IMG/VR virus record: IMGVR_UViG_3300027754_000159 | Coordinates: 1-46,353 of that record | DNA length: 46,353 bases | Direction: 5' to 3' (one strand) | Source of the DNA: a virus | Shown: piece after piece, positions 7,304 through 46,353 of the stretch | Layout of the letters: each line of letters begins with the position of its first letter | Position numbering within the stretch: the stretch's first letter is position 1 | Notes under the pieces: generated by a model | Databases searched by the model: none | Seen by the model: the letters and a program-made list of their open reading frames with translations, nothing else | What the model was told of the DNA's origin: nothing | Made by a program: the position numbers and the translations under genes

Positions 7304-7717
7304 TTATATATTTTCTGTAATATTGTAATATCCGTTTCTGTAATTAATCAACCCTTCAAGTGTTTTAATTTCTGATAGTCTAGATTGTCTTTCAAAAACC
7401 GCCACACCCATTCTTTCTATAAATACCTCGTCACTAACTTTTGGTGGAAATACCATACCCATTTTAGCCTCTTCTTTTATGACAGGGTGTTTAATAGTAT
7501 CTATTTGGTTTAGGCCAGATAAATTTGTGTTAAAAGTTGTTAAATATGATTTACTAAAAAATGTTTGATATGATACATCACCTATTGTGTAGGATAGTTT
7601 TGGTACTATTCCGTTGGTATCAAAGGCTGTGACCCCATTAACACCTACTTGGTATGGGTTTACTCTGTTATATGTTTTTACAACGTCTAATTTGTTTGAA
7701 GTATATCCTGTTATCAT
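7304..7717 (-). CDS. Uncharacterised small virion protein (137 aa)
   Basis: The ATG at 7717 lies one base after the upstream stop (TAATATG). The protein is soluble-looking, with a basic C-terminal half containing 'ERMGVAVFERQSRLSEIKTLEGL', which could form a helix. Very tight spacing to neighbours on both sides argues it is a real member of the baseplate/fibre operon. No family is recognised; a fibre connector or chaperone is possible but unsupported. Confidence 0.75.
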   Translation of the reverse strand: MITGYTSNKLDVVKTYNRVNPYQVGVNGVTAFDTNGIVPKLSYTIGDVSYQTFFSKSYLTTFNTNLSGLNQIDTIKHPVIKEEAKMGMVFPPKVSDEVFIERMGVAVFERQSRLSEIKTLEGLINYRNGYYNITENI

Positions 7718-7718
7718 A

Positions 7719-9590
7719 TTAAACTGCTATTGATGATGTTATTGTACAGCCATTACCATCTACAACAGTAACTTTTAATGAAGTATAAAGTGCTTCCGTT
7801 GTACAGAAAGCATCAGATGTTATTCCAGAACCCCAACTAACCGGACCACCAATTATAGGTATCATATCCCATGTTACAGTATAAGGTGCGACACCACCAT
7901 CAACATTTATAATACCTTGTCTTGAATTAGCTAAAGTACATCCAGCACTTGCAATACCTGGTATTATTGTACTAATATTAGGTGTACCTACAAAACTTAA
8001 TGGCATTGGTGGTTGTGTTAATGTTATTATTGTTGTTGCCGAACAAGATACTCCATAAACGTCTGGTGAATCTACCACTGTTATAGTATGTGTTCCCGCA
8101 CTCATAGTTATTAATTTTGTTGTTACAATACCAGGTAGTGGTGTTGGTAAATTAAGTACGCCATCTAAATAATATGTAATTGTTGGTGGTGTTAAAGTTG
8201 GGTAAGCAGTATATGTTGTTGTATCTGTTGTATAAGTACTTGTGAACGTAACTCCAGTTGTATTACCATAACAAGGTATATTAAACCCATTTAATGACGA
8301 TATACTACTATTTGTTAAATTAAGTCTAGGTTTTTGTTGTATAAGTTGATTAACTGTTGGTCCGTTACATAAATTACTATCTTTTATTTTAATTGTATAT
8401 GTACCAACTCCTAGGCCTGACCAAATAAAAGGTCCATTTCCATTTTGTGATGGGCTTATTAATGACGAACCTAAATACAATTGAGTGTTATATGGTGGTG
8501 TACCACCAGCAGGATTTACAGTGATTGAACCATTTGTAGAACCATAACATGTAACATTTGTATGTGGATAACTATATGTAACAGGTGTACTAGCTGACAC
8601 GATTATTGGTGGTAATGTTGTTGTGTTACCAACACTGTCTAAAATTTGTAATGTATAACAAGGTGTGGTACTAATAGGACAAGGTAATAAATTGTTAAAC
8701 GTTGCACTACCTGTACTACCTGTTATTGTAATAGATGTTGGCCCTGTTAATATAAATTTATATCCATCAGGTGTTGGTATGCCTCCCGATACATTAGCAG
8801 AAATTACTCCTGTGTTACCACCACTACAATCAACATTAATTATTGAAGTAACACTACCAGATATTGGTGTTGGTTCTGTTATAGTGAACATTGATGAGAC
8901 AACGGAACCGGTACCATCAGTTATTTGTACTGTGTATACTCCAGCACATAATGAAGTTATTCCAGAAGTGGTACCATAACTATTTGATGTGGTACCTGAG
9001 TACCATAAATAAGAATAAGGTGGTAACCCACCTTGTACCACAACACTTGCCTCACCATCACAACCACCAGGTGATGTTGCGTTTGTTTGTGAATTATCTG
9101 AAACTAAATTAAAACTTAATCCTTGTGGTTGTTGTAAAAATATAGATTTGTATGTTATATCACAATTAGCATCTGAAACTTTTAATGTATAATTACCTGA
9201 GGCTAAATTGTTATACCCAGCATTTAAATTTGTCGATGTGAAACCATTAGGCCCTGTCCATTCTACTGTTTGTGGTGATAGACAACCTGTTACTGTTGCC
9301 GATAAACTTCCGTTATTAGCACCAAAATATGTTATAGGTGTTGTCGAGAACGTTACTGTACAATTGTTTATAACTAAACAAGGTTTTTGTGCTAACCCAT
9401 CATTACTTAAGTTCCATACACCAGATAGGTCTACAATTTCATAAACAGGGTTTTCAGTATCAGTATATATACCTATATCTTCAAAATTTTGTTTTAAGAA
9501 AAAAGGAAAATATAACGTACTGGCAGTGATAACAAGGTTATCTGTTCTACCAATTTGTTCATAACCAACCGTTCTTTTATATATTTCCAC
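7719..9590 (-). CDS. SprB-repeat virion surface protein (623 aa)
   Basis: The start is GTG at 9590, one base after the upstream stop; no nearby in-frame ATG exists, so GTG is preferred. After an N-terminal segment of about 80 residues ('TVGYEQIGRTDNLVITAS') the protein is a chain of roughly six beta-sandwich-like units, beginning near residues 90, 177, 253, 347, 438 and 555. Each has a core such as 'CYGSTNGSITV..GGTPPY' and several end 'GVYTVQITD' or 'GTYTIKIKD'. This is the SprB repeat (Ig/PKD-like) known from flavobacterial gliding adhesins. I infer an elongated virion spike or fibre that contacts host surface glycans or gliding adhesins, probably attached through the N-terminal segment to the baseplate. 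Confidence 0.88.
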   Translation of the reverse strand: MEIYKRTVGYEQIGRTDNLVITASTLYFPFFLKQNFEDIGIYTDTENPVYEIVDLSGVWNLSNDGLAQKPCLVINNCTVTFSTTPITYFGANNGSLSATVTGCLSPQTVEWTGPNGFTSTNLNAGYNNLASGNYTLKVSDANCDITYKSIFLQQPQGLSFNLVSDNSQTNATSPGGCDGEASVVVQGGLPPYSYLWYSGTTSNSYGTTSGITSLCAGVYTVQITDGTGSVVSSMFTITEPTPISGSVTSIINVDCSGGNTGVISANVSGGIPTPDGYKFILTGPTSITITGSTGSATFNNLLPCPISTTPCYTLQILDSVGNTTTLPPIIVSASTPVTYSYPHTNVTCYGSTNGSITVNPAGGTPPYNTQLYLGSSLISPSQNGNGPFIWSGLGVGTYTIKIKDSNLCNGPTVNQLIQQKPRLNLTNSSISSLNGFNIPCYGNTTGVTFTSTYTTDTTTYTAYPTLTPPTITYYLDGVLNLPTPLPGIVTTKLITMSAGTHTITVVDSPDVYGVSCSATTIITLTQPPMPLSFVGTPNISTIIPGIASAGCTLANSRQGIINVDGGVAPYTVTWDMIPIIGGPVSWGSGITSDAFCTTEALYTSLKVTVVDGNGCTITSSIAV

Positions 9591-10362: not shown

Positions 10363-12188
10363 TCTTGTGTTAGGTTTATTGCCGATCTTATTCCACTCTG
10401 ATTTATTACAGAAGCTGGGTTAGGTATTTGTGTTCTAACATATAAATTATTACTGAAATAAAAATAATGTGCCCCATTAAGGAATGGGTAATCAACACCA
10501 TTTTTACCTTCTTCAAAATAACCAATAGTTAATAAATCTTTCCAAGCTATCGAACCATCTGCGTATGTAACATAATTTTCTGGTATGTCTATAATAATTT
10601 CATTTGGTCCTGCCGTCTCTATAACACTGGAATATTTTCTAATGTCTAATCTTTTAAAAGGTTTATAGTAGTACCCATTACCATTTGGATCTGTACTAAC
10701 ACCAAATCTGTGTATTATATCAGAAACAGTTTTTTCTTGTAGTTCTTTAGAATTAAATTCTACAAAATCACCAATGTATCTACTACCAAGTGTGGCTTGT
10801 ATGTCACCGTTAACATCTATAGTTTCTGTTCTACCAGAACTTTTTTCTATACTACCAATACCTGTTGGATTATTTAATGAAATATACTCCAATCCGTTTG
10901 AGGTGTCGGTGGTTGTGCGGTTAAAATCCCAATCAGCATTAACATGTGTCCAGTCATATGGGTTTTTACCGGCTCTTTTTGTTGTTGTATAATAAACTTG
11001 TGATAATGTTGCCCCTCTATTATCACGAAGTCTTTCAATATTAATATCTTGGTTGAACTGAAATAACCATGTGCCATTTGCTGTACCTAATCTAACATCG
11101 GATACATCACTATATGTGTTAGTACTAAAAGCACAAGGATATGTTTCATAGATATTTGACGATATAACCTCAAAATTTCTTATATAATATTCTGAAGGTG
11201 TTGCATCTAACCTTCTCCATTTTGGAAATGGTGTTGGGTAGGTAAAATTTGTACCTTTTGTTGTTGATAGTGCGGTTTTAATAATAAATTTTGTTGATCC
11301 GGAACTACCTATAACATTATACACCCTCCACACACCGTTTAATAAATTGGAGTTATCTGTCCTAATATCAACAAAATCGTTAGTTAATAAATTATGTGGT
11401 GATGTTGTGGTTATGGTTGTGTAAATGGTTTCACCAAAAGAAAAAGAACCGACAGTACTACCACTTATATCGGTAGATGTGGCTAAAAAAAATGTTGCTG
11501 AGTTATTAAAATTTATATCATCAAACGATGCGTCTACCATTCTAACAAAATTACCAAAACCAAAAGGTGTTGTTGAACTAGCATCTATTATAGTATCTAG
11601 TGTTAAATCTTTTTTAATGTTGTCATCATCAATACCTGCGTTTCTTACTTTATGTATACCTTGTAAAGAGTTATAATTTATACTACTATAAAGATATATG
11701 TAGTCACCTTCATTAAGGTTATGTGTTTGTACACCAGTTAAAGTTAAATAATCATTATTATTTATCGTTGTTGTATTTAAAGTTTCATATTGTAAACCAC
11801 GATAAGCGTTAGAAGATATTGTTCCACTAGGTGTTCTAGCATTTATTAAATAATTAGAGTCTGAATTATATGGGTATGTAATTTGCATAACCCAATTATT
11901 TGGTGCTACCGGTGGGTTACCATAAAATAAAGGATCCCAATTTGTACTTGTAGCTCCTGAAGATAAAGAATTTGTTGTATAAATATTTAATTTACCACTG
12001 AATCTATATTTTTTAGATTTATTTCTTTCATCATCAAAAACTTGTTGTAAATTAATAATGTCAATAATATCATACTCGGTTAAAGGTTTTGTTTTTTCCT
12101 CTAACTGTATTCTTATATTAGTGTCAGCATTTTCAGCAATTTTATACCTACTACTACCAATTAAATTTGTGATACTATCTGTTATCAT
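10356..12188 (-). CDS. Baseplate-region virion protein with two FCCH-like modules (610 aa)
   Basis: The ATG at 12188 overlaps the gp6-like stop as TAATG. Two internal segments share the pattern 'T..HNL..(G/N)D(Y/F)...' followed by 'L.G...V': residues about 148-180 ('THNLNEGDYIYLYSS') and about 259-290 ('PHNLLTNDFVDI'). Such modules resemble the small beta domain called E1 FCCH, which recurs in phage structural proteins. The rest is Asn/Thr-rich and beta-like. In T4 the gene after gp6 encodes wedge protein gp7; gene order makes a functional analogue possible, but I cannot show homology. Confidence 0.8.
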   Translation of the reverse strand: MITDSITNLIGSSRYKIAENADTNIRIQLEEKTKPLTEYDIIDIINLQQVFDDERNKSKKYRFSGKLNIYTTNSLSSGATSTNWDPLFYGNPPVAPNNWVMQITYPYNSDSNYLINARTPSGTISSNAYRGLQYETLNTTTINNNDYLTLTGVQTHNLNEGDYIYLYSSINYNSLQGIHKVRNAGIDDDNIKKDLTLDTIIDASSTTPFGFGNFVRMVDASFDDINFNNSATFFLATSTDISGSTVGSFSFGETIYTTITTTSPHNLLTNDFVDIRTDNSNLLNGVWRVYNVIGSSGSTKFIIKTALSTTKGTNFTYPTPFPKWRRLDATPSEYYIRNFEVISSNIYETYPCAFSTNTYSDVSDVRLGTANGTWLFQFNQDINIERLRDNRGATLSQVYYTTTKRAGKNPYDWTHVNADWDFNRTTTDTSNGLEYISLNNPTGIGSIEKSSGRTETIDVNGDIQATLGSRYIGDFVEFNSKELQEKTVSDIIHRFGVSTDPNGNGYYYKPFKRLDIRKYSSVIETAGPNEIIIDIPENYVTYADGSIAWKDLLTIGYFEEGKNGVDYPFLNGAHYFYFSNNLYVRTQIPNPASVINQSGIRSAINLTQEC

Positions 12189-22218: not shown

Positions 22219-23832
22219 TTAATTTTTGTTGTTTTTAGATTCGTTTGACATTTTAACGTTAGGCATAAAACGGAAAGTTTTATCCTTTTCAATCTTAAGT
22301 TTTACTTTACTACCTATTTTAAAATTATAAGCCGTACTATAATAATGAAATTCAACAGTCTCACCTTTATTAGTTTTTACCGTCACAACAATACCCGCCG
22401 ATTCAGTTTGACCCATATCTTCAATTATACCAATAAAAGTTTCACCAATTTCAGCGTTACGTGTACTACCATCAGCGTTTGTTACATCAACGTCACTTAT
22501 AGAAACACCGAGTGTTATAACCGCTGCCATAGCAATACCAGTTGAAACATATGAACCTAATTTACCTTTATTAATTTCAGTTAAAACTTTTTTTTTCCTG
22601 TGTCTAGATTCACTCATACCCTGAAGCGTGTTGTTGACCTCTTCTATTGTATTTACTATGTTTTGAATTCTATTTTCAATTTGTTCGATAACTTCTGGAT
22701 CGGCATCCATTTCTTTAGCTTTTAATACACTTTCTGTTAAGCTATTAATAGTTTCTTCAATACTATCACCCATCTCACTTTGATAAAGTTCTTCGAAGGA
22801 TGAAAACCCACCAGATTTAATTTCATCAATTATATTTTCATTTCTTAAATGACCCTCTAACATACCAAGAGTTATAGTAGTCATGAATAGTGCCATTTCA
22901 ATTAGTGAATCACGTTCTGAGTTATCATCATTTTCACCTTCCTCACCAAAATTTAATGATGTCTGTTCATCATTCTCTCTCAATCTTTTTTTCTTGTTTT
23001 TAGATTCAGGAACAAAAGATTTTTTAATATCAATAGAACTAAAATCTTTAACGTCTTCACCATTTGGGTCTAATTTCCAAACTTTAACTTGTCCATCTGG
23101 ACTTTGTCCATCAGGTGTATTACCGTCTGTAACTTCATAATTACTTTTTTTAGCCACATCATCCCAATAATCTGTTAACTTAACATTGAATGGGTAGCTA
23201 TCTAATGAACGTAATTCTAATTTTTCTTTTGGTTTTTGTGATTGTAAATCTTGTTTAATAGAGTTAATTTCGTTAGAAACTGAATCTATTTTAGATAATG
23301 ATGTCTCAAAGTTTTTAAACTGAGCCATTAAATCTTTAATCATGTTTTTACCTTCTTCAGCCGCTGTTACAGCTCTTTCAGCCGAACCTTTAGCGTCATC
23401 AGCTCTTTTTACGATATCGGTAACATCGATTTCTTCGGTATCAGAGTCATCATCAGATTCGATATCATCAGCCGCACTAAATTCATCTGCGGTACCAAAT
23501 TCATCATCATCAGTTTCTTCAGTATCTCCTTCGGTATCACCAAATCCACCTTCATCTTCCGTATCCCCACCTTCTGTATCATCACCAAAATCAAAGTCAG
23601 CATTGTCTTCACCACCTTCTTTGTTGTCTCCACCTTCGGCATCATCACCAAAATCAAATTCCGTATCATCTGTTTCTTCTTCCTCATCATCAGCATAATC
23701 TGTACGTTGTTCTGGATCTAGATAAGGTGCGTGATTTCTTTCTGTTAAAAAGTTACCACCTGTTTTAGTATTATAACCAAGAAGTTCTTTATATCTCTTT
23801 AGAGACTCATTCAATTCGTTAGATTTTTTCAT
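22219..23832 (-). CDS. Very acidic uncharacterised protein (537 aa)
   Basis: A GTG at 23850 gives six more residues, but the ATG at 23832, one base after the upstream stop, is preferred. Order of parts: a helical N-terminus ('NELNESLKRYKELLGY'); an Asp/Glu/Gly-rich disordered tract (about 46-140) with a repeated 'FDFGDDxEGGD'; a helical, probably coiled segment (about 140-200); a middle soluble region; a helical region near 310-410; and a hydrophobic stretch at about 427-447 ('TGIAMAAVITLGVSI') followed by a beta-rich C-terminus. The acidic, helical nature recalls phage scaffold or core proteins, but the hydrophobic stretch is unexpected there. No family is recognised; a head-assembly role is speculation. 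Confidence 0.8.
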   Translation of the reverse strand: MKKSNELNESLKRYKELLGYNTKTGGNFLTERNHAPYLDPEQRTDYADDEEEETDDTEFDFGDDAEGGDNKEGGEDNADFDFGDDTEGGDTEDEGGFGDTEGDTEETDDDEFGTADEFSAADDIESDDDSDTEEIDVTDIVKRADDAKGSAERAVTAAEEGKNMIKDLMAQFKNFETSLSKIDSVSNEINSIKQDLQSQKPKEKLELRSLDSYPFNVKLTDYWDDVAKKSNYEVTDGNTPDGQSPDGQVKVWKLDPNGEDVKDFSSIDIKKSFVPESKNKKKRLRENDEQTSLNFGEEGENDDNSERDSLIEMALFMTTITLGMLEGHLRNENIIDEIKSGGFSSFEELYQSEMGDSIEETINSLTESVLKAKEMDADPEVIEQIENRIQNIVNTIEEVNNTLQGMSESRHRKKKVLTEINKGKLGSYVSTGIAMAAVITLGVSISDVDVTNADGSTRNAEIGETFIGIIEDMGQTESAGIVVTVKTNKGETVEFHYYSTAYNFKIGSKVKLKIEKDKTFRFMPNVKMSNESKNNKN

Positions 23833-23833
23833 A

Positions 23834-24034
23834 TTAGATTGTGTATTCACTTAATAATTGACGACCATCATTTGTGATGATTTTCTTATGTTCTCTTTTA
23901 ACAATCTCTTCTGGATTGTTGATTAAACATTCTTCACCTTGACATTCTACTTGTTTTGTAGTTTTTAAAAAAGAATCAAGTTTAGATTTGATTTCGTTTT
24001 CTTCGGTGTTTTCTTTTTTTCTATTTTTAATCAT
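23834..24034 (-). CDS. Small charged uncharacterised protein (66 aa)
   Basis: The ATG at 24034 lies 4 nt after the upstream stop, and the stop is one base before the next preferred ATG. The protein is Lys/Glu-rich with two cysteines spaced C-x4-C ('VECQGEECLI'), too few for an obvious zinc site. No family is recognised. Tight spacing supports it as a real member of the 24275-22219 unit. Confidence 0.65.
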   Translation of the reverse strand: MIKNRKKENTEENEIKSKLDSFLKTTKQVECQGEECLINNPEEIVKREHKKIITNDGRQLLSEYTI

Positions 24035-25963: not shown

Positions 25964-28900
25964 TTAAGATATTTTACCTAATGATTGTAATTTATTTTGA
26001 AGTGTTACATTTTTTACTTTTCCTTGACTAGCTTTAGCCACAGTTCCAGTGTTATTAGTATTTGTAGCGTTACTTGCTGTAACTAATTTAACGTTATTTA
26101 ATGTTGTTAAATCTGGATAACCATTAGATTTATTAACATTATATTGATCCCCACTTTTAATTTTACCTGTATAAGAACTCTTAAAATTAGGGTGTCCACC
26201 ATCAGGTTGTAATGTGTATTCATAGTGCCAAGGTTCAGAAGATAATGGTTGCCACCCAAAACTTGGAGCGTTTTCTTGCATCCACAATAAAGCTAAATCA
26301 TTCATTGTTCTTAGTTCGTCTGATGTTGGGTTACCTGTTAGATTGGCGTAAAAATCTTTTACTTTTTGTAAATTTAGTTTTCCACTAGATAAATAAGATG
26401 CTGAATTTTCTTTTGCTTTAGCTACAGCTAGAGAAGTACAATCATCAAAACCTAATGATTTAGCCTCTTGTTTACAAACATTACTATTACTATATACACC
26501 TTTATCACTAGGTAGTTTTACACTGTAATATGTTGCCCCACCTTTAAACGGTGTTGTATCACAAGCCATACCATAACCATGATTACTAGAACTATATATT
26601 TTACCATTAAGTTCTTGTACAGCCGCTGTTTGTGGTGAACATGAAGCTTTTCTATCTGTTAAGTTACCACCACAGTTATTCTTTCTTAAAGTTATTTGTG
26701 AATCTACGGTTCTATAATTAGAACCTGTTTTTGATATCAATACCCCTGTATCAGTTTTCATTTGTGCTGCCATAGCTTTCCAAGCGTCTGCAGCTTCATG
26801 GAAAAAGTATGTGTAAGAACCATAATCAGAACCTAAATTAACTAACACCGTATTACCAGCATTTATAGGTAATAAACCACCATTACTTTTATCCAACCAA
26901 GGTTGTTTTACACCAGTTTTATAATTAACAATAAATGTATCATCAGCAACGTTAGAACTACTAACATTTCCATTTGTGTTACTAGCCTCAGGTTGTGTTT
27001 GAGAGGTATTTGTACCGCCATCTGTTTTAACAGTAGCAATAGATTGTCCAACTTTATTTGTTTTTAAATCTTTAAATGACATATCCATAGCAATTGCTGC
27101 ATCAACAACAATTGGTATTGTTGCTCTTGGTTGTCTAGTTCCTTTAAAAGTTGTTGTTGCGTTATTAGGTTTAAAATTATGCCTAACTTCAGTTATTAGA
27201 TAAGCTCCACTAAACATCGGTACACCTATTAAATCAAAATATGTCATAGGTTGTATCATCATGTTACCTAAAGATTCTACTTGACAAGAATATGATCTTG
27301 TTAAATAAATAGAATTTAAATTTTGTCCTTTTGATGTTTGGTCTGTACCTCCTTGTTTACCAAGTTTATCGATAGCTAATAAAGATTCTGCCGTTTCACT
27401 AAATTCTGATTGGTCTAATTGTATATTTTTAAAATGATTTTGAGTATCTAACCCGTAAACAACTTTGAAAGCGGTATAACCTTTACTACCAACTAATTTA
27501 GGATCTTTTGTTTCTGCTGGTTGTGCGGTCTGTAATGGATTAGAAATTGAAAATCCATCATCTTCTAAATTTTGTAAAGCCTTTTTATCGTCAGGGCAGT
27601 TAGCGTTGGATTTTATTTGTAACTGTTTTGAGTTTCCACCTACATACATGGATAAAAATAAAGGGCCACAACTAACATTATCTAAAGACAATGTCGGTCT
27701 AAACATATCCTCTAAATCTTTTTTATCAGTACCTTGTGGAGTAAAATTTATATAACCTGGTAATGGAAAAAATAAGTATTCATTTTCTGCTAATAAATCA
27801 GAAATATATTGGTATAAAGAAATTTTAATGTTGTCTTTTAATTCAAGAAGTTTTGTTACATTAAGAACCGCGATATTACCAATATCACCCATTACCCTAT
27901 TAACATATTGAAAATGTGAGGCTAGCGTTGGTTTTTCCCCATCACCATTACCTGATTTACAATTTTTTCCGGCTGATTCAACCAAATTAAAAAATAATTT
28001 ATTTTTATCCGACGCAGAAATCCATTTATCTGTTAAAGACTTAAATGTTCTATAAAAGGAAAGTTTTACATCATCATCTTTTAATGAAGATCCAAGATTA
28101 TCCTCAATATTTTTTTTCTGAATTTCATCTATTTTTTTAGTTTTATTAGTTTGTAACGTATCAAAAAATGAGTTTAAATACTCATCAAAAATTTTATTAG
28201 ATATTACAAATTTTGAGTTGAATTTATTTGTTGTTATAGTGTCTGATGAATCTATACCATACCATATTTTTGGTGTTGAATTTAAAATCCAATATTTTTC
28301 AGAAACCAATTTTTTAGTTTCCGTAAGATTTGGTTTTAAAGCTAAAGCAACACTATTGTTTGTTGTACCATTAACAGCTGTTTTAGATATTTCACGACTC
28401 CAAGAATAACTACCGCCAATTAATGACCCTGTAGATGTGTTGTCAAAATTAATAGGATCTATTTCTTTTAAAATATTGTTTGAACTTCCACCAAAATCTG
28501 AATCTACCCATTCTTCAAAGTTTTTTATAAAAATATCTTTTACTTCATCTGGTAGATGTTGCATTACCATACCTAAGTTACCGTCAGAAACTCTATCTCT
28601 ATGTATAAAACGTCCTTGTCTTAACATACTGGTTGGGTCAATTAAATTTTCAACGTTTGGATCTGAATGTAGGTTTTTAAAGACATCAGTTACGGTATCA
28701 CCGTAGTTACACATTTCTTTATACCCAAATCCAATCCTATCTTCTGGCATTATAGTTTGATAGTCTAAATAATCCATAGTATTAGTGAATACTTGTACAT
28801 AAGAACAAGCTTCACCCTTACCACCAGCAAATCCTTCTGGGTGAACATATGGTATATGATGTGGTGCTATCCAAAGTTGTGACCAATTATAATTGTCAGA

Positions 28901-38119: not shown

Positions 38120-40882
38120 TTATCTTCCTTTACCGCCATTTTTATCTTTTTCAGTGGACTCAGCGATTAACTGTTTTAACTTACTAACAAAAATAGGGTC
38201 AGATACCCAATCAGTATCGGATTTACCACCTGATTTACCAGCAATTTGAATTGAACCGTCTATATGTAACGATTCGTCAAATTTTATTGTTGTTGTTGAT
38301 CCCAATAAAGCCATCCATACAGATAAATCTTTTAAAGCTTGAAGTTTATTTTCGTCTACTGAATTTATAGCGTTAATAGTTTTTGTGATACCTTCTGCAC
38401 CACCTGTCGACGCTAAGGCTGACGCCGTTTGGGTTAACATCGAGGTAACACCACCCAATATTAATAAACCAGGTAAAGCAAGTAATGATGAAAATGCTAG
38501 AGCTATAAGTGAGGCTGATAAAAGACCTATTGATATTGCTAAAAACCCCATACCTAAAGAAGCTTCTATTAATTGTGGACCAGAGATAACTGTAAATAAT
38601 TGTGTCAAGGAACCTAATATTGTTGATACTCCTTCAGCAACCAATTTAAAAGCGTAACCTAACGCCATAGCGGCAACCGATAACCCAAGTAATAAAAGTA
38701 CACCTATTTCACCAATACCTGTTTCACCTAAAGCACCTAAAGCAAAAACTGCCAGTGTTAATACACCAAGACCCGCTGCCATAACAAGTATACTATCAAG
38801 ACCAACATCTTTCATCATTTGTAGACCATAAGCAAGTGGAATCATAGATGCACCCAATATTGCGATAGCTACAGCCCCTTCAATCATATCTTTTTCGACT
38901 TTACTTAAAGCCCAAGCTGCCGTACCTAAAATGGCTAATCCGGCCGCGGTCATTAATATAACCTCACCTTTATTACTAACCTTATCCATTTCTTGTAAAG
39001 ATTTAGCAAAAACAAACAAAGCCGCTGATAAAATTAAAATAGCTACAGCCCCTTTAATCATATCAGTAGCGTTAATACCTTTGGTTACATCACCAGCTCC
39101 ACCCCCTTTTGTACTTGGAGTTGAGGGTGATTCACTTTGTGTACTTAAACCACTAGATTCTTTTTTAGATAACCATTTCATTTGTTTTTTTGAAAAGTCC
39201 CCACCTTTACCTGTGGCAGCATTAAAACCTTTACCCATTTCATACCCTTGTTTAAAATTTTTACCAGGACCAAAAAATCCTATCATATTTTTAACAAAAT
39301 TAATGGCTTGTATAGCTTTCATTACTAAAAATAAAGTGCCTACACCTATCGCGAACCATTTAATTATGGGTAATAACATTTTTGTTGTATCTAAAAATTT
39401 TGTAAAACCAGAAGTTAAATTGTCAGCGGCTGGCTTTAACCAATTTTGTATTGATTGTAAAAGAGGCCAAAAAGCCATTGTGAGTTGGTCTATGACAGCA
39501 GCCCATTCTTGTCTCATACTAATAGCGTCTTTTTGGGTTTTATCATCTAAATCCCTTTTTTTAGCTAAATTTATGGCCTCATCCTTACTTAATTCAGAAA
39601 GTTTTTTAGTTAAGGGTAACCCTGTATCTGGATTTACACCTATCTGTATTGTACCGTCAGCATTAGCCATACCTGTTATCATGTCAACAGTTTTAGGGTC
39701 TAACCCTTTACCTTTTAACATACCTTCAAAAGCATTAATTTTGGCTGTCTGTTTTGCTGTTTTAGCTAGCTCAGCATAATCCATACCTAAAGCCGCTGCA
39801 GCCTCTTTTAACCTATCCAATTCATTCGCATTAACTTTCCATTCCCCAGTCGCCTTATCAAAAGTCGCTGATGCTGAAGCAGCCTTTGTTAAACTCTTAG
39901 CCAATTCTTCAGGTGAATTACGTGCTTTATACATTAATTGAAATGGGTCACCCAAAGCTGCTAAACTACCACCTAATACTTGTAATTGAGCTGCGGCCTC
40001 AATAGCACCTTCAGGTCTAAAAACTTTATCAGCCACAGAAGCGACTGAATTCATATCTATTTTATATTTTTCAGAATATGCTGCCATAGCCATCATACCC
40101 TTAACACCTTTATTAAAATTAAGTTTGTTCATCAAACCCAAGTTTGATTGAAACGATTTTAAAACTTTTGAAGAGTTCGCTCCAATAGCCTCAGCCTCGG
40201 AAGACATTTCAGCAATTAAAGCTACGGACTTTTCAGCCCCAAAACCAAAAGCTTCCATTTCACCTGACATAGCAGCAACACCCTCAACACCTAAACCAGT
40301 TTTAGCACCAATCATAGACATAGTTTTAAGGACCTCACCACTTAAAATAACAGACCTACCAACCTCATCCGAGTAAGCTCCTTGAGCCTCAGCTAAATCT
40401 TTTGCTTCAAAACCCCATTCAGCAGCAACATTTCTTGCGGCTATCATGTTACTTTGCATCATATTCATTTTTGAACCAGACAGACCCATGTTAACACCTG
40501 TCTTACGAACCGCCTCATCAAAATCAAACCATTTAGTTAAAATATTACCTAATACCCCTAAGAAATTTTTATCTAAAATGTTGGCGGCCGATTTAATTAA
40601 ACTACCTTGTTTAGCTAATTGTTTATTAGTTTCTATTAAAAGTTGTTGTTCTTTTTTAAGTGAGGCAAGTTTTTTTTTGCCTTCTTCCGTTGTATCTTCA
40701 GCTAATTCAAGTATTTGTGCTTGAATTATTTTTATATCCCCCCAATTTTTATTTATTCTATTTTGATACTCAGCATAACCTTTAAAAGAAGTTACTTGTT
40801 CTTTAAAAGTTTCGTTAATATCTTGTTGCATTTGAAGGTATTTAGCCTCATCTGCAAGATTTCTTTTAAAATTATCTTCCAT
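38120..40882 (-). CDS. Tail tape measure protein (920 aa)
   Basis: Sets tail length and is thought to reach into the cell envelope on ejection. The N-terminal ~100 residues are helical ('KKLASLKKEQQLLIETNKQLAKQG'), residues about 130-420 are Ala/Gly/Met-rich helices typical of tape measures, and residues about 505-815 hold roughly seven hydrophobic segments ('IKWFAIGVGTLFLVM', 'GAVAILILSAALFVFA', 'LLLLGLSVAAMALGYAF' and others). The C-terminus is charged. The ATG at 40882 overlaps the upstream stop as TAATG. With about 1.5 Angstrom per residue, the length would give a tail of about 140 nm (inference from the known rule). Confidence 0.88.
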   Translation of the reverse strand: MEDNFKRNLADEAKYLQMQQDINETFKEQVTSFKGYAEYQNRINKNWGDIKIIQAQILELAEDTTEEGKKKLASLKKEQQLLIETNKQLAKQGSLIKSAANILDKNFLGVLGNILTKWFDFDEAVRKTGVNMGLSGSKMNMMQSNMIAARNVAAEWGFEAKDLAEAQGAYSDEVGRSVILSGEVLKTMSMIGAKTGLGVEGVAAMSGEMEAFGFGAEKSVALIAEMSSEAEAIGANSSKVLKSFQSNLGLMNKLNFNKGVKGMMAMAAYSEKYKIDMNSVASVADKVFRPEGAIEAAAQLQVLGGSLAALGDPFQLMYKARNSPEELAKSLTKAASASATFDKATGEWKVNANELDRLKEAAAALGMDYAELAKTAKQTAKINAFEGMLKGKGLDPKTVDMITGMANADGTIQIGVNPDTGLPLTKKLSELSKDEAINLAKKRDLDDKTQKDAISMRQEWAAVIDQLTMAFWPLLQSIQNWLKPAADNLTSGFTKFLDTTKMLLPIIKWFAIGVGTLFLVMKAIQAINFVKNMIGFFGPGKNFKQGYEMGKGFNAATGKGGDFSKKQMKWLSKKESSGLSTQSESPSTPSTKGGGAGDVTKGINATDMIKGAVAILILSAALFVFAKSLQEMDKVSNKGEVILMTAAGLAILGTAAWALSKVEKDMIEGAVAIAILGASMIPLAYGLQMMKDVGLDSILVMAAGLGVLTLAVFALGALGETGIGEIGVLLLLGLSVAAMALGYAFKLVAEGVSTILGSLTQLFTVISGPQLIEASLGMGFLAISIGLLSASLIALAFSSLLALPGLLILGGVTSMLTQTASALASTGGAEGITKTINAINSVDENKLQALKDLSVWMALLGSTTTIKFDESLHIDGSIQIAGKSGGKSDTDWVSDPIFVSKLKQLIAESTEKDKNGGKGR

Positions 40883-42684
40883 TATTTACGTGGTTGTAAC
40901 ATTAACTTACCTGTAAAAGGTGTTGTACCTTTATATGCGTAAGCATTTTTATTTATTTTAACCTCTATCGGACCTTTAAACCAATTTGGATTTGGTTTTA
41001 TTGGTGTCACTACTAAAGCTCCATCATTATCACCACTACCTTGTGGTTTTATAATGATAGAACCAGGTAAAGTCATACTTTGTTTAATAATCATTCTATC
41101 ACTTTTGAAATCTGAATTAACAAAAGTTTTAATTATTGGTTTTATAACATCATCGTCACCTTCTTTAATATCATATATTTTACCCGAAACAGGAACCTCT
41201 TTTTTAATTTCTTTAGTGAATAAACTACCAGTACCACCACCACTGCCACCTTTACTGAACTTACTAACATCTTCACCTCTTTTAGCCTTAGCTTTAGGAC
41301 CTAATATTATAGATTTTGAATATATTTTTGTTTCTAAATCACTAGCAGCACCAAAGAAAATTTTACCTTTTTCTAAAGAAGTAGATTCACCTTCTTCTTC
41401 CTCTTCAAAAATTAATTTAACATTATTAGCTATGTTGTTAATAAAAGATTCCATTGTCGACATACTAGCTTTAGGTGTATTATTTACATTAATATTTTTA
41501 CCACTTTCAATACCTTTTTGTTTACCGCCTTTAGTCATTTCAGGTAGTTTACTAAAACTTCTTAAAAAATTATTAAAACTACCGATAAGTTTTTTCCAAA
41601 GAAGTTTTCTTTCTTGTTCGTTTGAGGTATTAGATTTACCTTTTGACGCGATTATAAATAATTGTTTATAAAAATCTTTTATAACATTATAAGTTTCAGA
41701 ATTTTTACCACTTTTTGCTACTTTAGCAAATAATGAAAATAATTCCGTCATAAAGTTTTGTAATTCAAGTTTAACTTTTAAATACTTTCTTTGTCTTCCA
41801 GACATTGAAGTTGGTGCCTCTAACAAACCGTTGGTCTTTAAATCTTTTAAAGTCACCAAAAGAGGTTTTTTATTTATTTTAATAGATTTTGTTGTATTGA
41901 TTATCGCGTCTAAAAATATTTTTTGAAAATCTTCGTCAGTTTGGTATTGTTGAATTACTGAGAAAAAGTTAGCCTTTTCTTTAAGGTTTGTAAGTTTTTG
42001 GTTAGCCTCTTTAATATCTTTTCCATTATAATAATTGCCCTTACCATTTCCACCGTTTTCTTTTTTTTCACCATCCTCGTCTTTACCTTCTTCTTCTTCA
42101 CCATCTTCTTCCCCATTTTCACTTTCACTAACACCTGTATTTAAAAGTTTTATAAAATCGTCAAAAATACCTATATTATAAAACTTACCTTTACCACCAT
42201 CATCACCTGTTGCAATAGCCTGAATACCTTTTTTAGTTCCAGGTAAATTTGTTACAAGTTCATCAGCGTCAAAATGTATTTTAAAAATACTACCACCCGG
42301 TATTTTAACACTAATTTCACCTTTACCATTTTTTACATTAAAATTAGTATCGTCTTCCGTTTTAAGTTCTAAAACTAAACCGTTATCAACAGAATTAACA
42401 CGAGCCAAAGTATCAAACTGAATTGGTTTTGGTATTGTCAATTCTTGAGCCTTATCTTTTACCTGTAATAAAAAATTATATTTAAAAGGTTCTACGGACA
42501 ATTGTTCAATAGTTGTAACACCTCTCAAGGCCGCTAAATCTGGTCTAGCACCCATACCAGCCATTCTTTCTTTCACCCTATCAACAGCTAGGTCAGCTGT
42601 TGCGGCCTGATGAGCTCTATCATCACCAGTCACAGATTCATCTGCTTCATATAAAGTTTGTCGTATAATACCTTTAATGTTCAT
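40882..42684 (-). CDS. Uncharacterised tail-region protein (600 aa)
   Basis: First gene of the tape-measure unit, directly behind TATAAATATC copy 4. Its N-terminus 'MNIKGIIRQTLYEADES' resembles the short 'IRKILKE' leaders at 45354-46323. A beta-rich region follows (about 65-175), then a long acidic low-complexity tract (about 185-225, 'EEDGEEEEGKDEDGEKKENG'), a helical region (about 235-420), a second acidic patch ('FEEEEEGE') and a basic, Gly-rich C-terminus. No family is recognised. In T4, genes 27 and 28 sit between gp51 and the tape measure, so a hub-assembly role is possible but not shown by sequence. Confidence 0.8.
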   Translation of the reverse strand: MNIKGIIRQTLYEADESVTGDDRAHQAATADLAVDRVKERMAGMGARPDLAALRGVTTIEQLSVEPFKYNFLLQVKDKAQELTIPKPIQFDTLARVNSVDNGLVLELKTEDDTNFNVKNGKGEISVKIPGGSIFKIHFDADELVTNLPGTKKGIQAIATGDDGGKGKFYNIGIFDDFIKLLNTGVSESENGEEDGEEEEGKDEDGEKKENGGNGKGNYYNGKDIKEANQKLTNLKEKANFFSVIQQYQTDEDFQKIFLDAIINTTKSIKINKKPLLVTLKDLKTNGLLEAPTSMSGRQRKYLKVKLELQNFMTELFSLFAKVAKSGKNSETYNVIKDFYKQLFIIASKGKSNTSNEQERKLLWKKLIGSFNNFLRSFSKLPEMTKGGKQKGIESGKNINVNNTPKASMSTMESFINNIANNVKLIFEEEEEGESTSLEKGKIFFGAASDLETKIYSKSIILGPKAKAKRGEDVSKFSKGGSGGGTGSLFTKEIKKEVPVSGKIYDIKEGDDDVIKPIIKTFVNSDFKSDRMIIKQSMTLPGSIIIKPQGSGDNDGALVVTPIKPNPNWFKGPIEVKINKNAYAYKGTTPFTGKLMLQPRK

Positions 42685-42697
42685 TAATACTTTTTTT

Positions 42698-42707
42698 TAT
42701 AAATATC
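42698..42707 (-). promoter_or_regulatory. Conserved TATAAATATC element, copy 4
   Basis: Identical 10-mer ending 13 nt before the ATG at 42684, and immediately downstream (leftward) of a terminator. This placement is the best argument that the element starts transcription. Confidence 0.65.
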
Positions 42708-44321: not shown

Positions 44322-45326
44322 ATGAAAATGACACAAGATAAACTAAATAGATTAACAGAAGTTCTTTCAGTACCGACACATTCACAAAATGAGGCTTTAA
44401 TGATTGAGTATTTACAAAAAGTTTTAACAGAAAAAGGGTATGAACATTATACAGATACTCACGGTAATATCTATGTAACAAAAGGTTTTACCAGAAATTT
44501 CCCTTGTTTCATCGCACATACTGATACTGTACATAAAGTTAACAAAAACTTAACTGTATTACAGGAAGAGATAGATGGTGAAGTAACTTTAAGAGGTATT
44601 GATAAGGAATCTAAAAGACCTTTAGGTATTGGTGGTGATGATAAGTGTGGTATTTATTTAGCTCTTGAAATGTTAGATACATTACCTAATGTAAAGATAG
44701 CTTTCTTTGTATCTGAAGAAATTGGGTGTAAAGGTAGTATGTACGCAGACCCAAAATTCTTTGAAAACGTTGGTTATGTAATTCAATATGATTCTCCAGG
44801 TGGTGACTCTATGAGTTTAACATTAATGGGGCGTTATTTATTTAACCAAAAATCAGAATTTGCTGACAAAGTAACAGATTTAATTACCGAACACGGTATC
44901 ACTGATTGGGCTTACCATCCTTATACAGATGTTTGGCAAATCATGGAAAAATTTAACATAGCTTGTTTAAACTTAGCGGCTGGTTATTACAAATATCACA
45001 CTGACAACGAATATGTTATAGTTGACGATGTTCAAAATGGTTATAACTTAGGTTTGAAACTTGTTGAAATTCTTGGTGAGAACAGTTATAAAAACTATAA
45101 AGAAGATAAAAAACACACTTATTCAACATACTGGGGTGGAGAAACAAAGGTATACAATCCAGCCAAATCTAATAACTTATTAGTAGAGGGTGCTAAAGAT
45201 GAAACTGACGGTGATGATATCTTTAATAACGGTGAATATGTTTGTACTGACCGTGGTCGTAAAGATTATGGGTATGGACCTTATTACAGTAGAAGTGAAC
45301 AATGGGATGAAGATTATGATTGGTAA
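44322..45326 (+). CDS. M20/M42-type zinc metallopeptidase (334 aa)
   Basis: Predicted two-zinc aminopeptidase or carboxypeptidase. Ligands and catalytic residues of the clan appear in order: H66-x-D68 in 'IAHTDTVH', D106 in 'GGDDKCG', E132-E133 in 'SEEIGCKG', D157 in 'QYDSPGG' and H226 in 'YKYHTDNEY'. The opening 'LNRLTEVLSVPTHSQNE' is typical of peptidase T/M20 proteins. There is no signal peptide, so it would work in the cytoplasm. The C-terminal ~70 residues are acidic and Tyr-rich ('DYGYGPYYSRSEQWDEDYDW'). The gene ends at a terminator. Such a peptidase is not part of phage assembly; it may recycle host peptides or disarm a host factor. Confidence 0.88.
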   Translation: MKMTQDKLNRLTEVLSVPTHSQNEALMIEYLQKVLTEKGYEHYTDTHGNIYVTKGFTRNFPCFIAHTDTVHKVNKNLTVLQEEIDGEVTLRGIDKESKRPLGIGGDDKCGIYLALEMLDTLPNVKIAFFVSEEIGCKGSMYADPKFFENVGYVIQYDSPGGDSMSLTLMGRYLFNQKSEFADKVTDLITEHGITDWAYHPYTDVWQIMEKFNIACLNLAAGYYKYHTDNEYVIVDDVQNGYNLGLKLVEILGENSYKNYKEDKKHTYSTYWGGETKVYNPAKSNNLLVEGAKDETDGDDIFNNGEYVCTDRGRKDYGYGPYYSRSEQWDEDYDW

Positions 45327-45330
45327 AAGA

Positions 45331-45356
45331 AAAGGGACTTAATAGTCCCTTTTTTA
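45331..45356. terminator. Bidirectional terminator between convergent genes
   Basis: Stem AAAGGGACT (45331-45339) / AGTCCCTTT (45344-45352) with loop TAAT and T-runs on both strands. It lies 4 nt after the peptidase stop and overlaps the stop of the leftward gene at 45354. Confidence 0.92.
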
Positions 45357-45830
45357 TTTTAATTTAACATCATGTTCAACACCCGATTCGTCATAATAAC
45401 TAATTTCTACTTGGTATAATATAGCTGGGTAGTCTTGACCCAAATAATAGTCTGACATATCTTTTGGAGTACCATAATTATCATCTTCATCATACGAGGA
45501 AATACTCAAACCAATGCTTTTAACTATTCTATCAACATCTTGCCATCTACTAATATCTTCATTTTCCCTACTTAATAAAGTGCTGTAAAATTTACAAACA
45601 TTTATAAAAGTTTGAAAGGATTCGTTATTATCTGATTTGAAATGATATTCTTCTCTTAAAGTTCTATCACCATCATCCCAAGTTGAATTAATAATAAACA
45701 TATTTTTGATTGCTGGCCTATTTCTTAAACCAATAACCTCAAAAGGTAATTCAGTATTAGCAAAATCATTACTTACGGAATCAAACCATTCTTCAGATTC
45801 TTTTAATATTTTTTTTATGTTATTCCTCAT
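45354..45830 (-). CDS. Uncharacterised protein with capsid-targeting-like leader (158 aa)
   Basis: A longer reading begins at TTG 45851, but the ATG at 45830 gives the leader 'MRNNIKKILKESEEWFD', closely matching its upstream neighbour 'MRKILKE'-type start ('MKDRIRKILKETEDEFD'), and is chosen. It overlaps the upstream gene by 11 nt. After the leader the protein is a soluble acidic alpha/beta protein ('FEVIGLRNRPAIKNMFIINS', 'EISYYDESG'). T4 internal head proteins carry short N-terminal targeting peptides cut by the prohead protease after L/I-x-E; the leader here contains L-K-E. Packaging into the capsid is inference. Confidence 0.75.
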   Translation of the reverse strand: MRNNIKKILKESEEWFDSVSNDFANTELPFEVIGLRNRPAIKNMFIINSTWDDGDRTLREEYHFKSDNNESFQTFINVCKFYSTLLSRENEDISRWQDVDRIVKSIGLSISSYDEDDNYGTPKDMSDYYLGQDYPAILYQVEISYYDESGVEHDVKLK

Positions 45831-46323
45831 TACTATTTTCCAACTCTTCAATTCTTTCTCTTAATTCTTCAATTGTGGATTTTAAATCGTCAATCTCAGA
45901 TTCTTTTTCTGTCTCCATTTCTTCACGACCTTCTTCACGACCTCTATCAAAACCGTCATCATATGCTGATTCTTTAGCCTCATCTACTTGTTCTAGCACA
46001 TAATCATAACTATAATAATCATCACAACACCCATCACAATCACAATCTTCACGACCACTATCATAACCAGCCTCTTTCCCACTATCATAAACAGATTCGA
46101 ATTGGTCAAAAAGTTCTTTACCAACTTCTTTTAATGTATTTATATCGTGGAAACCGGCATCAACTAATGTTTGATATATAGCTAAAATGCTTGTATTATA
46201 TTCATCATCAGTTTCAGACCAACCAGATTGAATCTCTTGCTCAACTTTTGTTGTGTCAAAACCACGAGCCCAATCAAACTCGTCTTCAGTCTCTTTTAGT
46301 ATTTTTCTTATTCTATCCTTCAT
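45820..46323 (-). CDS. Acidic coiled-coil protein with capsid-targeting-like leader (167 aa)
   Basis: The ATG at 46323 overlaps the upstream partial gene by 11 nt. The leader 'MKDRIRKILKETEDEFDWA' is followed by an acidic body with a Gly/Asp repeat ('YDSGKEAGYDSGRE', 'YDDGFDRGREEGREE'), a Cys cluster 'CDCDGCC' (about residues 94-100) and a C-terminal coiled coil ('LKSTIEELRERIEELE'). No family is recognised. The Cys cluster may bind metal. The shared leader with the next gene and the coiled coil shared with the gene before it suggest a small duplicated family, perhaps of packaged or scaffold-associated proteins. Confidence 0.78.
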   Translation of the reverse strand: MKDRIRKILKETEDEFDWARGFDTTKVEQEIQSGWSETDDEYNTSILAIYQTLVDAGFHDINTLKEVGKELFDQFESVYDSGKEAGYDSGREDCDCDGCCDDYYSYDYVLEQVDEAKESAYDDGFDRGREEGREEMETEKESEIDDLKSTIEELRERIEELENSNEE

Positions 46324-46353
46324 TTAAACGACTTTCTAATTCTTCTATACGTG
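46313..46353 (-). CDS. C-terminal end of a further tandem gene (cut by window)
   Basis: The last 13 codons are visible, ending 'RIEELESRLNEG' and TAG at 46313. This resembles the coiled-coil end 'RIEELENSNEE' of the next gene. The 11-nt overlap with the next ATG (ATGAAGGATAG) repeats the layout of the following gene pair, so this is probably another copy of the same small family. Confidence 0.6.
   Translation of the reverse strand, partial: RIEELESRLNEG

Follow-up and report, generated by a model that had tools for sequence, protein, structure and literature searches.

Near one end of a partial phage genome, two adjacent genes with different bodies open with almost the same eleven residues, which raises the question of what such a shared leader is for. 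The stretch analysed here (the window) is a virus record of 46,353 bases, which is partial and not a whole genome, and an earlier note on it had proposed a set of packaged proteins comparable with the internal head proteins of T4. This fragment comes from a far-T4 myovirus. Baseplate proteins of the T4 type are encoded, namely gp6-like and gp25-like wedge proteins with a Pfam T4_baseplate match, and the gp6-like protein shows 30% identity to Microcystis phage Mel-JY01 (190 kb) and 29% to the Flavobacterium immuto phages (160 kb). Replication proteins similar to RecA/UvsX, a DnaB-type helicase and single-strand binding protein were also recognized by eye, and head genes are absent from this fragment, which lacks the head block. 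The host may be a member of the Bacteroidota, to judge from the immuto phages and from a published group of bS21-encoding Bacteroidetes phages, whose head gene set is similar (PMC9723584).

The leader genes of the window

The features on which the argument turns are as follows (a slash in a sequence marks the end of a leader or propeptide).

45354..45830, minus strand: leader gene 1, 158 aa, alpha/beta body (ORF, homologs and model)
45798..45830, minus strand: leader-coding segment of gene 1, ending L-K-E, with E as residue 11
45820..46323, minus strand: leader gene 2, 167 aa (ORF and 23-row alignment)
46291..46323, minus strand: leader-coding segment of gene 2, ending L-K-E
46313..46353, minus strand: leader gene 3, 3' end only, the rest lying beyond the window (frame RIEELESRLNEG*)
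45820..45830, minus strand: overlap of genes 2 and 1, 11 nt, ATGAGGAATAA
46313..46323, minus strand: overlap of genes 3 and 2, 11 nt, ATGAAGGATAG
44322-45326, plus strand: M20/M42-like peptidase (scores below curated cut-offs), antiparallel to the leader genes
40882..42684, minus strand: 600-aa protein encoded in the tail block; its leader, MNIKGIIRQTLYE/A, is probable and divergent
42699..42706, minus strand: promoter-like motif ATATTTAT upstream of the 600-aa gene
22219-23850, minus strand: 543-aa acidic protein

The leaders of gene 1, MRNNIKKILKESEEWFD (MRNNIKKILKE), and gene 2, MKDRIRKILKETEDEFD (MKDRIRKILKE), reach 19.5 and 19.9 bits when scored with a matrix derived from leaders of four other records, which together with direct reading bears out the earlier observation of two adjacent genes with shared leaders. 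Both junctions were likewise found to overlap by exactly 11 nt, as had been claimed; the corresponding junction in another locus (L014) overlaps by 38 nt, so 11 nt is not a general figure. A contig nearly identical to the window (L010; 92% to gene 2 and 98% to gene 1) carries gene 3 complete at 8229-8678, starting with MKNLIKKILKEAEDEFEWARGLD (MKNLIKKILKE), in the order tail tube, homing-type endonuclease (by eye), gene 3, gene 2, gene 1 and, on the opposite strand, the M20/M42-like peptidase, whose position is kept in many relatives. The endonuclease-like ORF (7351-8223), which is inserted there between tail tube and gene 3, encodes 290 aa.

The complete copy also refines what had been said of the bodies. 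They do differ between genes 1 and 2, and gene 1 has only the leader in common with genes 2 and 3; gene 3, of which a shared coiled-coil end had been noticed, is paralogous to gene 2 from end to end. Among homologs of gene 1 (26-98% identity, 17 rows) M1, I5, I8, L9 and E11 are invariant, and K10 and E11 are invariant in the alignment of gene 2. The body of gene 2 is helical, with a CDCDGCCDDY motif and a C-terminal coiled coil. Its homologs in G010 (L244) and in L036 carry a longer leader, MKKIIKLTE[KN]DI.KLV.KIIKE, whose KIIKE boundary aligns with that of the short form, so that homologous bodies bear different leader classes. In a structure model of gene 1 of moderate confidence, the leader is a low-confidence helix (residues 1-13, pLDDT <50) and most of the body is better defined; searching this fold against the PDB gave no match at E <= 0.001, and eight viral proteins of no known function were matched at E <= 0.001 with TM 0.36-0.50 on the query. 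The model of gene 2, helical and of low confidence (mean pLDDT 58.9), was too poor for a fold search.

The 600-aa protein, which had been said to open similarly, starts with MNIKGIIRQTLYE/ADES. Its L-x-E and the endings of its relatives near the same place, which are L-x-E or M-x-E in most of them (LLKE in five loci, and also ELKE, IMTE and LLSE), agree with that claim, while a matrix score of only 4.7 does not, and a related protein (L045, 12838-14559) is without such a leader. A family search with this protein gave no match, and used as a query against viral contigs it retrieved no relative, the relatives being found later in other loci. The 543-aa acidic protein scores -6.4 and was left out of the leader counts; in most of its relatives an L-x-E or I-x-E is conserved around residue 25-40, behind an N-terminus that differs from the leader (LNE.LKRYKELLGYN...).

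One leader on many bodies

The phenomenon is far larger than the window shows. A search with the tail tube protein yielded 80 loci from related contigs, and a degenerate leader DNA pattern matched 9 of 13 long records selected in this way, whereas the reversed control gave 0 matches; all 15 records selected by the leader matched, as their selection required, mostly several times each. Six of the 13 IMG/VR records were analysed whole (G001, G004, G006, G007, G009 and G010); G002, G003 and G005 have leader sequences in common with G004 and were left out of separate analysis. A matrix was constructed from 41 seed leaders of G001, G006, G004 and G010, four leader-rich related records of 108-380 kb, and detected leaders on 29 of 340 genes in G001 (1.2 expected), 34 of 373 in G006 (0.7), 21 of 207 in G004 (1.0) and 12 of 106 in G010 (0.3), these being the same four genomes on which it was built. 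Records outside the matrix gave few matches: 3/218 in Mel-JY01 (expected 0.6), 3/183 in immuto (0.3), 1/349 in G009 (0.3) and 2/326 in G007 (0.6). An unseeded search for gapped words at N-termini recovered the same motif in the four leader-rich records, with M..LI.K, I..IL.E and ILKE occurring some 14 to 180 times more often than expected; the same scan on T4 did not recover its capsid-targeting sequence (CTS), which has too few copies. More proteins with this leader, which the earlier note had proposed to look for, are thus present at 12-34 genes per record in four relatives, scattered over entire genomes, with some lying between the protease and capsid genes.

When the genomes and the fetched loci were combined, 289 leader proteins resulted, unique on their first 60 residues; three bodies were too short, and BLAST at 1e-3 placed the other 286 in 121 body clusters, 78 of them singletons. 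Since low scorers may be chance, as might a ClpB-like (12.6) and a helicase-like ORF (9.5) in the pool, a stricter set scoring at least 16 was made, which holds 198 proteins in 83 clusters. That an ordinary basic helix at the N-terminus, repeated by chance or inherited within one paralogous family, gave rise to the leader is scarcely credible. Chance is ruled out by the matrix counts (0.3-1.2 genes expected per record) and the unseeded word search, and a single family, which does hold for genes 2 and 3 as true paralogs, is ruled out for the leader overall by the 121 clusters, even if some of them may still be distant homologs. The exact pattern MKNLI[RK]KILKE was found in 73 stretches of viral contigs and in one stretch of a prokaryote genome collection; the latter, a 63,985-base contig filed as Prochlorococcus, equals an IMG/VR virus contig in length and in the gene there, so the leader is in practice a virus signature.

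In its consensus form the leader is an amphipathic basic peptide, M-K-N-L-I-[KR]-K-I-L-K-E, which stops at [LI]-x-E, an ending found in 277 of the 289 proteins. Weighted by body cluster, the relative entropy of the eight scored positions is 1.6-3.5 bits and highest at E (3.3-3.5), falling to 1.0-1.25 at +1 and 0.26-0.43 at +2 and then to near background; conservation within the scored positions (-7 to 0) comes partly from selection, and the drop after E does not. Up to 20 residues behind the leader, 105 of 286 proteins, from 27 of 121 clusters, carry an acidic aromatic element, DF[DE]W (nine proteins in a control window), so that in many members the kept unit reaches beyond E. The residue directly after E (P1') is most often another E (113 of 286).

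What is conserved might instead be a DNA or RNA element, such as a promoter plus start region or a recombination site, with the peptide incidental. In G001, G006, G004 and G010, the motif ATATTTAT was looked for in the 60 nt before genes that have an upstream gap of at least 15 nt. It stands there in 44 of 52 leader genes and 24 of 37 structural genes, against 1 of 17 genes of replication or metabolism and 152 of the 555 remaining ones. In relatives it precedes head, tail and leader genes, and we read it as a putative late promoter. It mostly starts 12-16 nt before the start codon of leader genes, which leaves almost no untranslated region and suggests near-leaderless transcripts. Within the window its nine copies do not exceed chance (12.4 expected), and five of them precede ORFs of the minus strand by 18-25 nt, the gp25-like, 600-aa and 1534-aa genes among them. 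A nucleic-acid element would suit the spacing of 12-16 nt and the use of ATA for the eighth codon (Ile) in 158 of 180 leaders (background 0.46). In contrast, leaders of exactly 11 codons (180 in all), compared pairwise between clusters, differ by 0.617 per synonymous and 0.145 per nonsynonymous site, which argues that the peptide and not the DNA is kept, and a TerL-like gene of G006 (by eye) has the motif at the same distance but lacks this leader. The DNA-level reading was rejected on the codon divergence, with the ATA bias remaining, and we hold it to be highly improbable.

Head protease, capsid protein and leader function

T4 gp21 cuts after L/I-X-E, and propeptides of 10-19 residues bring T4 internal proteins into the core, according to a published account (PMC9026906). 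The earlier note had suggested looking for a gp21-like protease; an S77 match, sought in the 46-kb window, was found only in its relatives, in 9 of 15 records (the 13 selected by tail tube, Mel-JY01 and immuto). Among the 15 leader-selected records, five have S77 and the same five a full gp23, and the other ten have neither, apart from G018, which holds a gp23-like piece of 196 aa. In seven related records the gp23 propeptide ends in I-S-E (three), I-N-E (one), L-N-E (two) or V-S-E (immuto), hence [LI]xE in six of the seven, at residue 59 or 60, aligned with the FLTE/A of T4 and followed by A, S or T. G007 possesses S77 and gp23 without a convincing repeated leader, which is a gap in the argument; the KFI..IF that recurs at its N-termini seems to stem from repeats upstream being read through, and was left uncounted.

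The protease of Mel-JY01 itself starts ...VQKIIKE/S. That the protease bears the leader was considered and dropped, for the S77 of G010 had entered the pool only through a weak off-register score (9.4). In G009, the record of locus L087, the S77 gene (183551-185353, L269) is interrupted directly after its HELDHPD motif, and PF03420 matches in two pieces; the insert is intein-like, with C as first residue and ...N before S at its end, and if it is an intein, protease activity would wait for splicing. Short gp23-like ORFs were also seen apart from the full capsid gene in G001 (11262-11816), G004 (118469-119090) and G018 (27399-27758), those of G001 and G004 lying near leader genes.

Other lineages possess different repeated leaders, most of which end in [LI]-x-E as well. 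In G009, M(K/N)LNEQ..RMK.MMG[LI]xE opens seven proteins, ending LNE, IKE, LKE or INE, one of which matches ART-PolyVal above the curated cut-off (1.6e-9) and another weakly. Immuto and Mel-JY01 have leader classes of their own: the immuto leaders are MENFDLKKFLVE and MKKQILSEQF..IITE, with MENFDLKKFLVEN[RK]LT or close variants on four proteins and MKKQILSEQF on two, and Mel-JY01 carries MIKLKSLL[QK]E or MIKLMSLVTE on three related proteins.

Most bodies of leader proteins gave no Pfam match (119 of 121 cluster representatives were scanned); among the matches listed are a C39-type peptidase, a GIY-YIG domain and a GP88 protein, and, weakly, DHH and Tox-ART-HYD1. A leader-bearing cluster of 12 (L056 6358-6771, L123, L155) contains repeats of the LGNLxSVGGxLxLxxTPI type, leucine-rich-repeat-like by eye. 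ADP-ribosyltransferase-type bodies, which recall T4 Alt, stand behind three unrelated leader types; one is a clear ART-PolyVal, the others being weak or assigned by eye.

G009, 222897-223517: ADP-ribosyltransferase-type body
G009, 224411-224995: ADP-ribosyltransferase-type body
L162, 1429-1914: ADP-ribosyltransferase-type body
Mel-JY01, 60276-60926: ADP-ribosyltransferase-type body
Mel-JY01, 62056-62718: ADP-ribosyltransferase-type body

Judged from sequence, the 11-residue leader is probably a capsid-targeting propeptide, and large T4-related phages appear to put one short, probably clipped-off tag on dozens of unrelated proteins. Several features count against it: an S77 match is lacking in the window and in 10 of 15 leader-selected records, the leader genes of the window sit among tail genes, matrix matches outside the seed records are few, and P1' is most often E in leader proteins versus A, S or T in the capsid proteins. 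An E at P1', like the DF[DE]W element kept behind E on many bodies, would fit a packaging or docking tag that stays uncut on a scaffold, shell or other assembly protein, with E as a contact residue. Such a tag is rather unlikely, given the sharp fall of conservation at E, the protease-type site found where T4 is cut in the capsid protein of these phages, and the recurrence of [LI]xE at the end of an unrelated leader in a second lineage. A tail-block location, as seen for the window leader genes and the 600-aa protein, would suit a leader that routes late proteins elsewhere, to a chaperonin, the tail, a membrane or a phage-made compartment, and the title of a cited work links a T4 head protein N-terminus to GroEL. 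Routing of this kind leaves the [LI]xE ending common to the capsid protein unexplained and fits poorly with leader genes that are spread genome-wide, also between protease and capsid genes; we regard it as improbable.

With a cleaved propeptide, the leader would dock each protein on the scaffold core during head assembly, the S77 protease would cut after L-K-E with loss of the leader peptide, and the body would be left in the head with the DNA. Some bodies, such as the C39-type peptidase, the GIY-YIG nuclease and the ADP-ribosyltransferase-type folds, may then be delivered into the host at infection, and genes 3-2-1 of the window would form one late operon of cargo placed inside the tail gene block. 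The packaged proteins supposed in the earlier note are partly supported, by the many further leader proteins, the S77 protease and the protease-type capsid sites, all of which lie in relatives.

A more general cargo code is conceivable, toward which we lean somewhat less than away from it: one or a few exchangeable leaders with a head-protease site would load some 12-35 proteins per virion, mostly effectors aimed at the host or factors against its defences that enter along with the DNA, and new genes would join this arsenal by gaining a late-promoter-plus-leader cassette. T4 Ip1-3 have only their leader in common and are injected anti-restriction proteins, as stated in a published account (PMC12373910), which makes a host-directed function a fair guess for part of the cargo, and no more. 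No description of this leader was found among open-licence PMC papers. If the interpretation is true, a 33-nt signature would mark the packaged cargo of uncultured large phages from sequence alone, over a hundred candidate families of injected proteins, nearly all of unknown function, would come into view, and a ready peptide tag would be at hand to load foreign proteins into such heads. The three-protein system of T4 would then be a small version of a much larger strategy, in which leader sequences are replaced between lineages and the protease site is kept.

Comparison with known packaging systems

The closest known counterpart is the CTS of T4 (IPI-III and Alt, cut by gp21). Both systems combine a short N-terminal leader, unrelated bodies and an [LI]-x-E ending; those leader-selected relatives that hold a full gp23 encode an S77 protease too, and one related lineage has an ADP-ribosyltransferase-type body, as Alt does. 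The comparison with T4 internal proteins drawn in the earlier note is thus apt in its logic and fails for the leader sequence, which is MKNLI[RK]KILKE here and MKTYQEFIAE in T4 ipII/ipIII (by eye). The systems also differ in scale, T4 having three IPs and Alt where each of the four records has 12-34 leader genes, and in the frequent DF[DE]W after E and the promoter-like motif just before the leader. T4 cargo is cleaved and packaged, whereas cleavage and packaging are predictions here. In appearance the nearest T4 N-terminus is that of the capsid vertex protein gp24, MAKINELLRE/S, which we take to be its cut position; LLRE/S resembles ILKE/S in look, and this propeptide stands on one structural protein only.

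SPN3US and phiKZ are likewise large myoviruses with many ejected head proteins and a head protease that cuts after x-x-E; SPN3US cuts after A-X-E, several propeptides exceed 100 residues, and the portions consulted of the two reports mention no common short leader (PMC5694885, PMC10052503). In phage P1 the first 30 residues of DarB take a foreign protein into the capsid, as with the leader proposed here, while the N-termini of the Dar proteins are without a consensus in the part of the report consulted (PMC9024508). The claim is one of analogy and not of homology: in the best reading, the leader would do what the propeptide does for T4 internal proteins, at a far greater scale.
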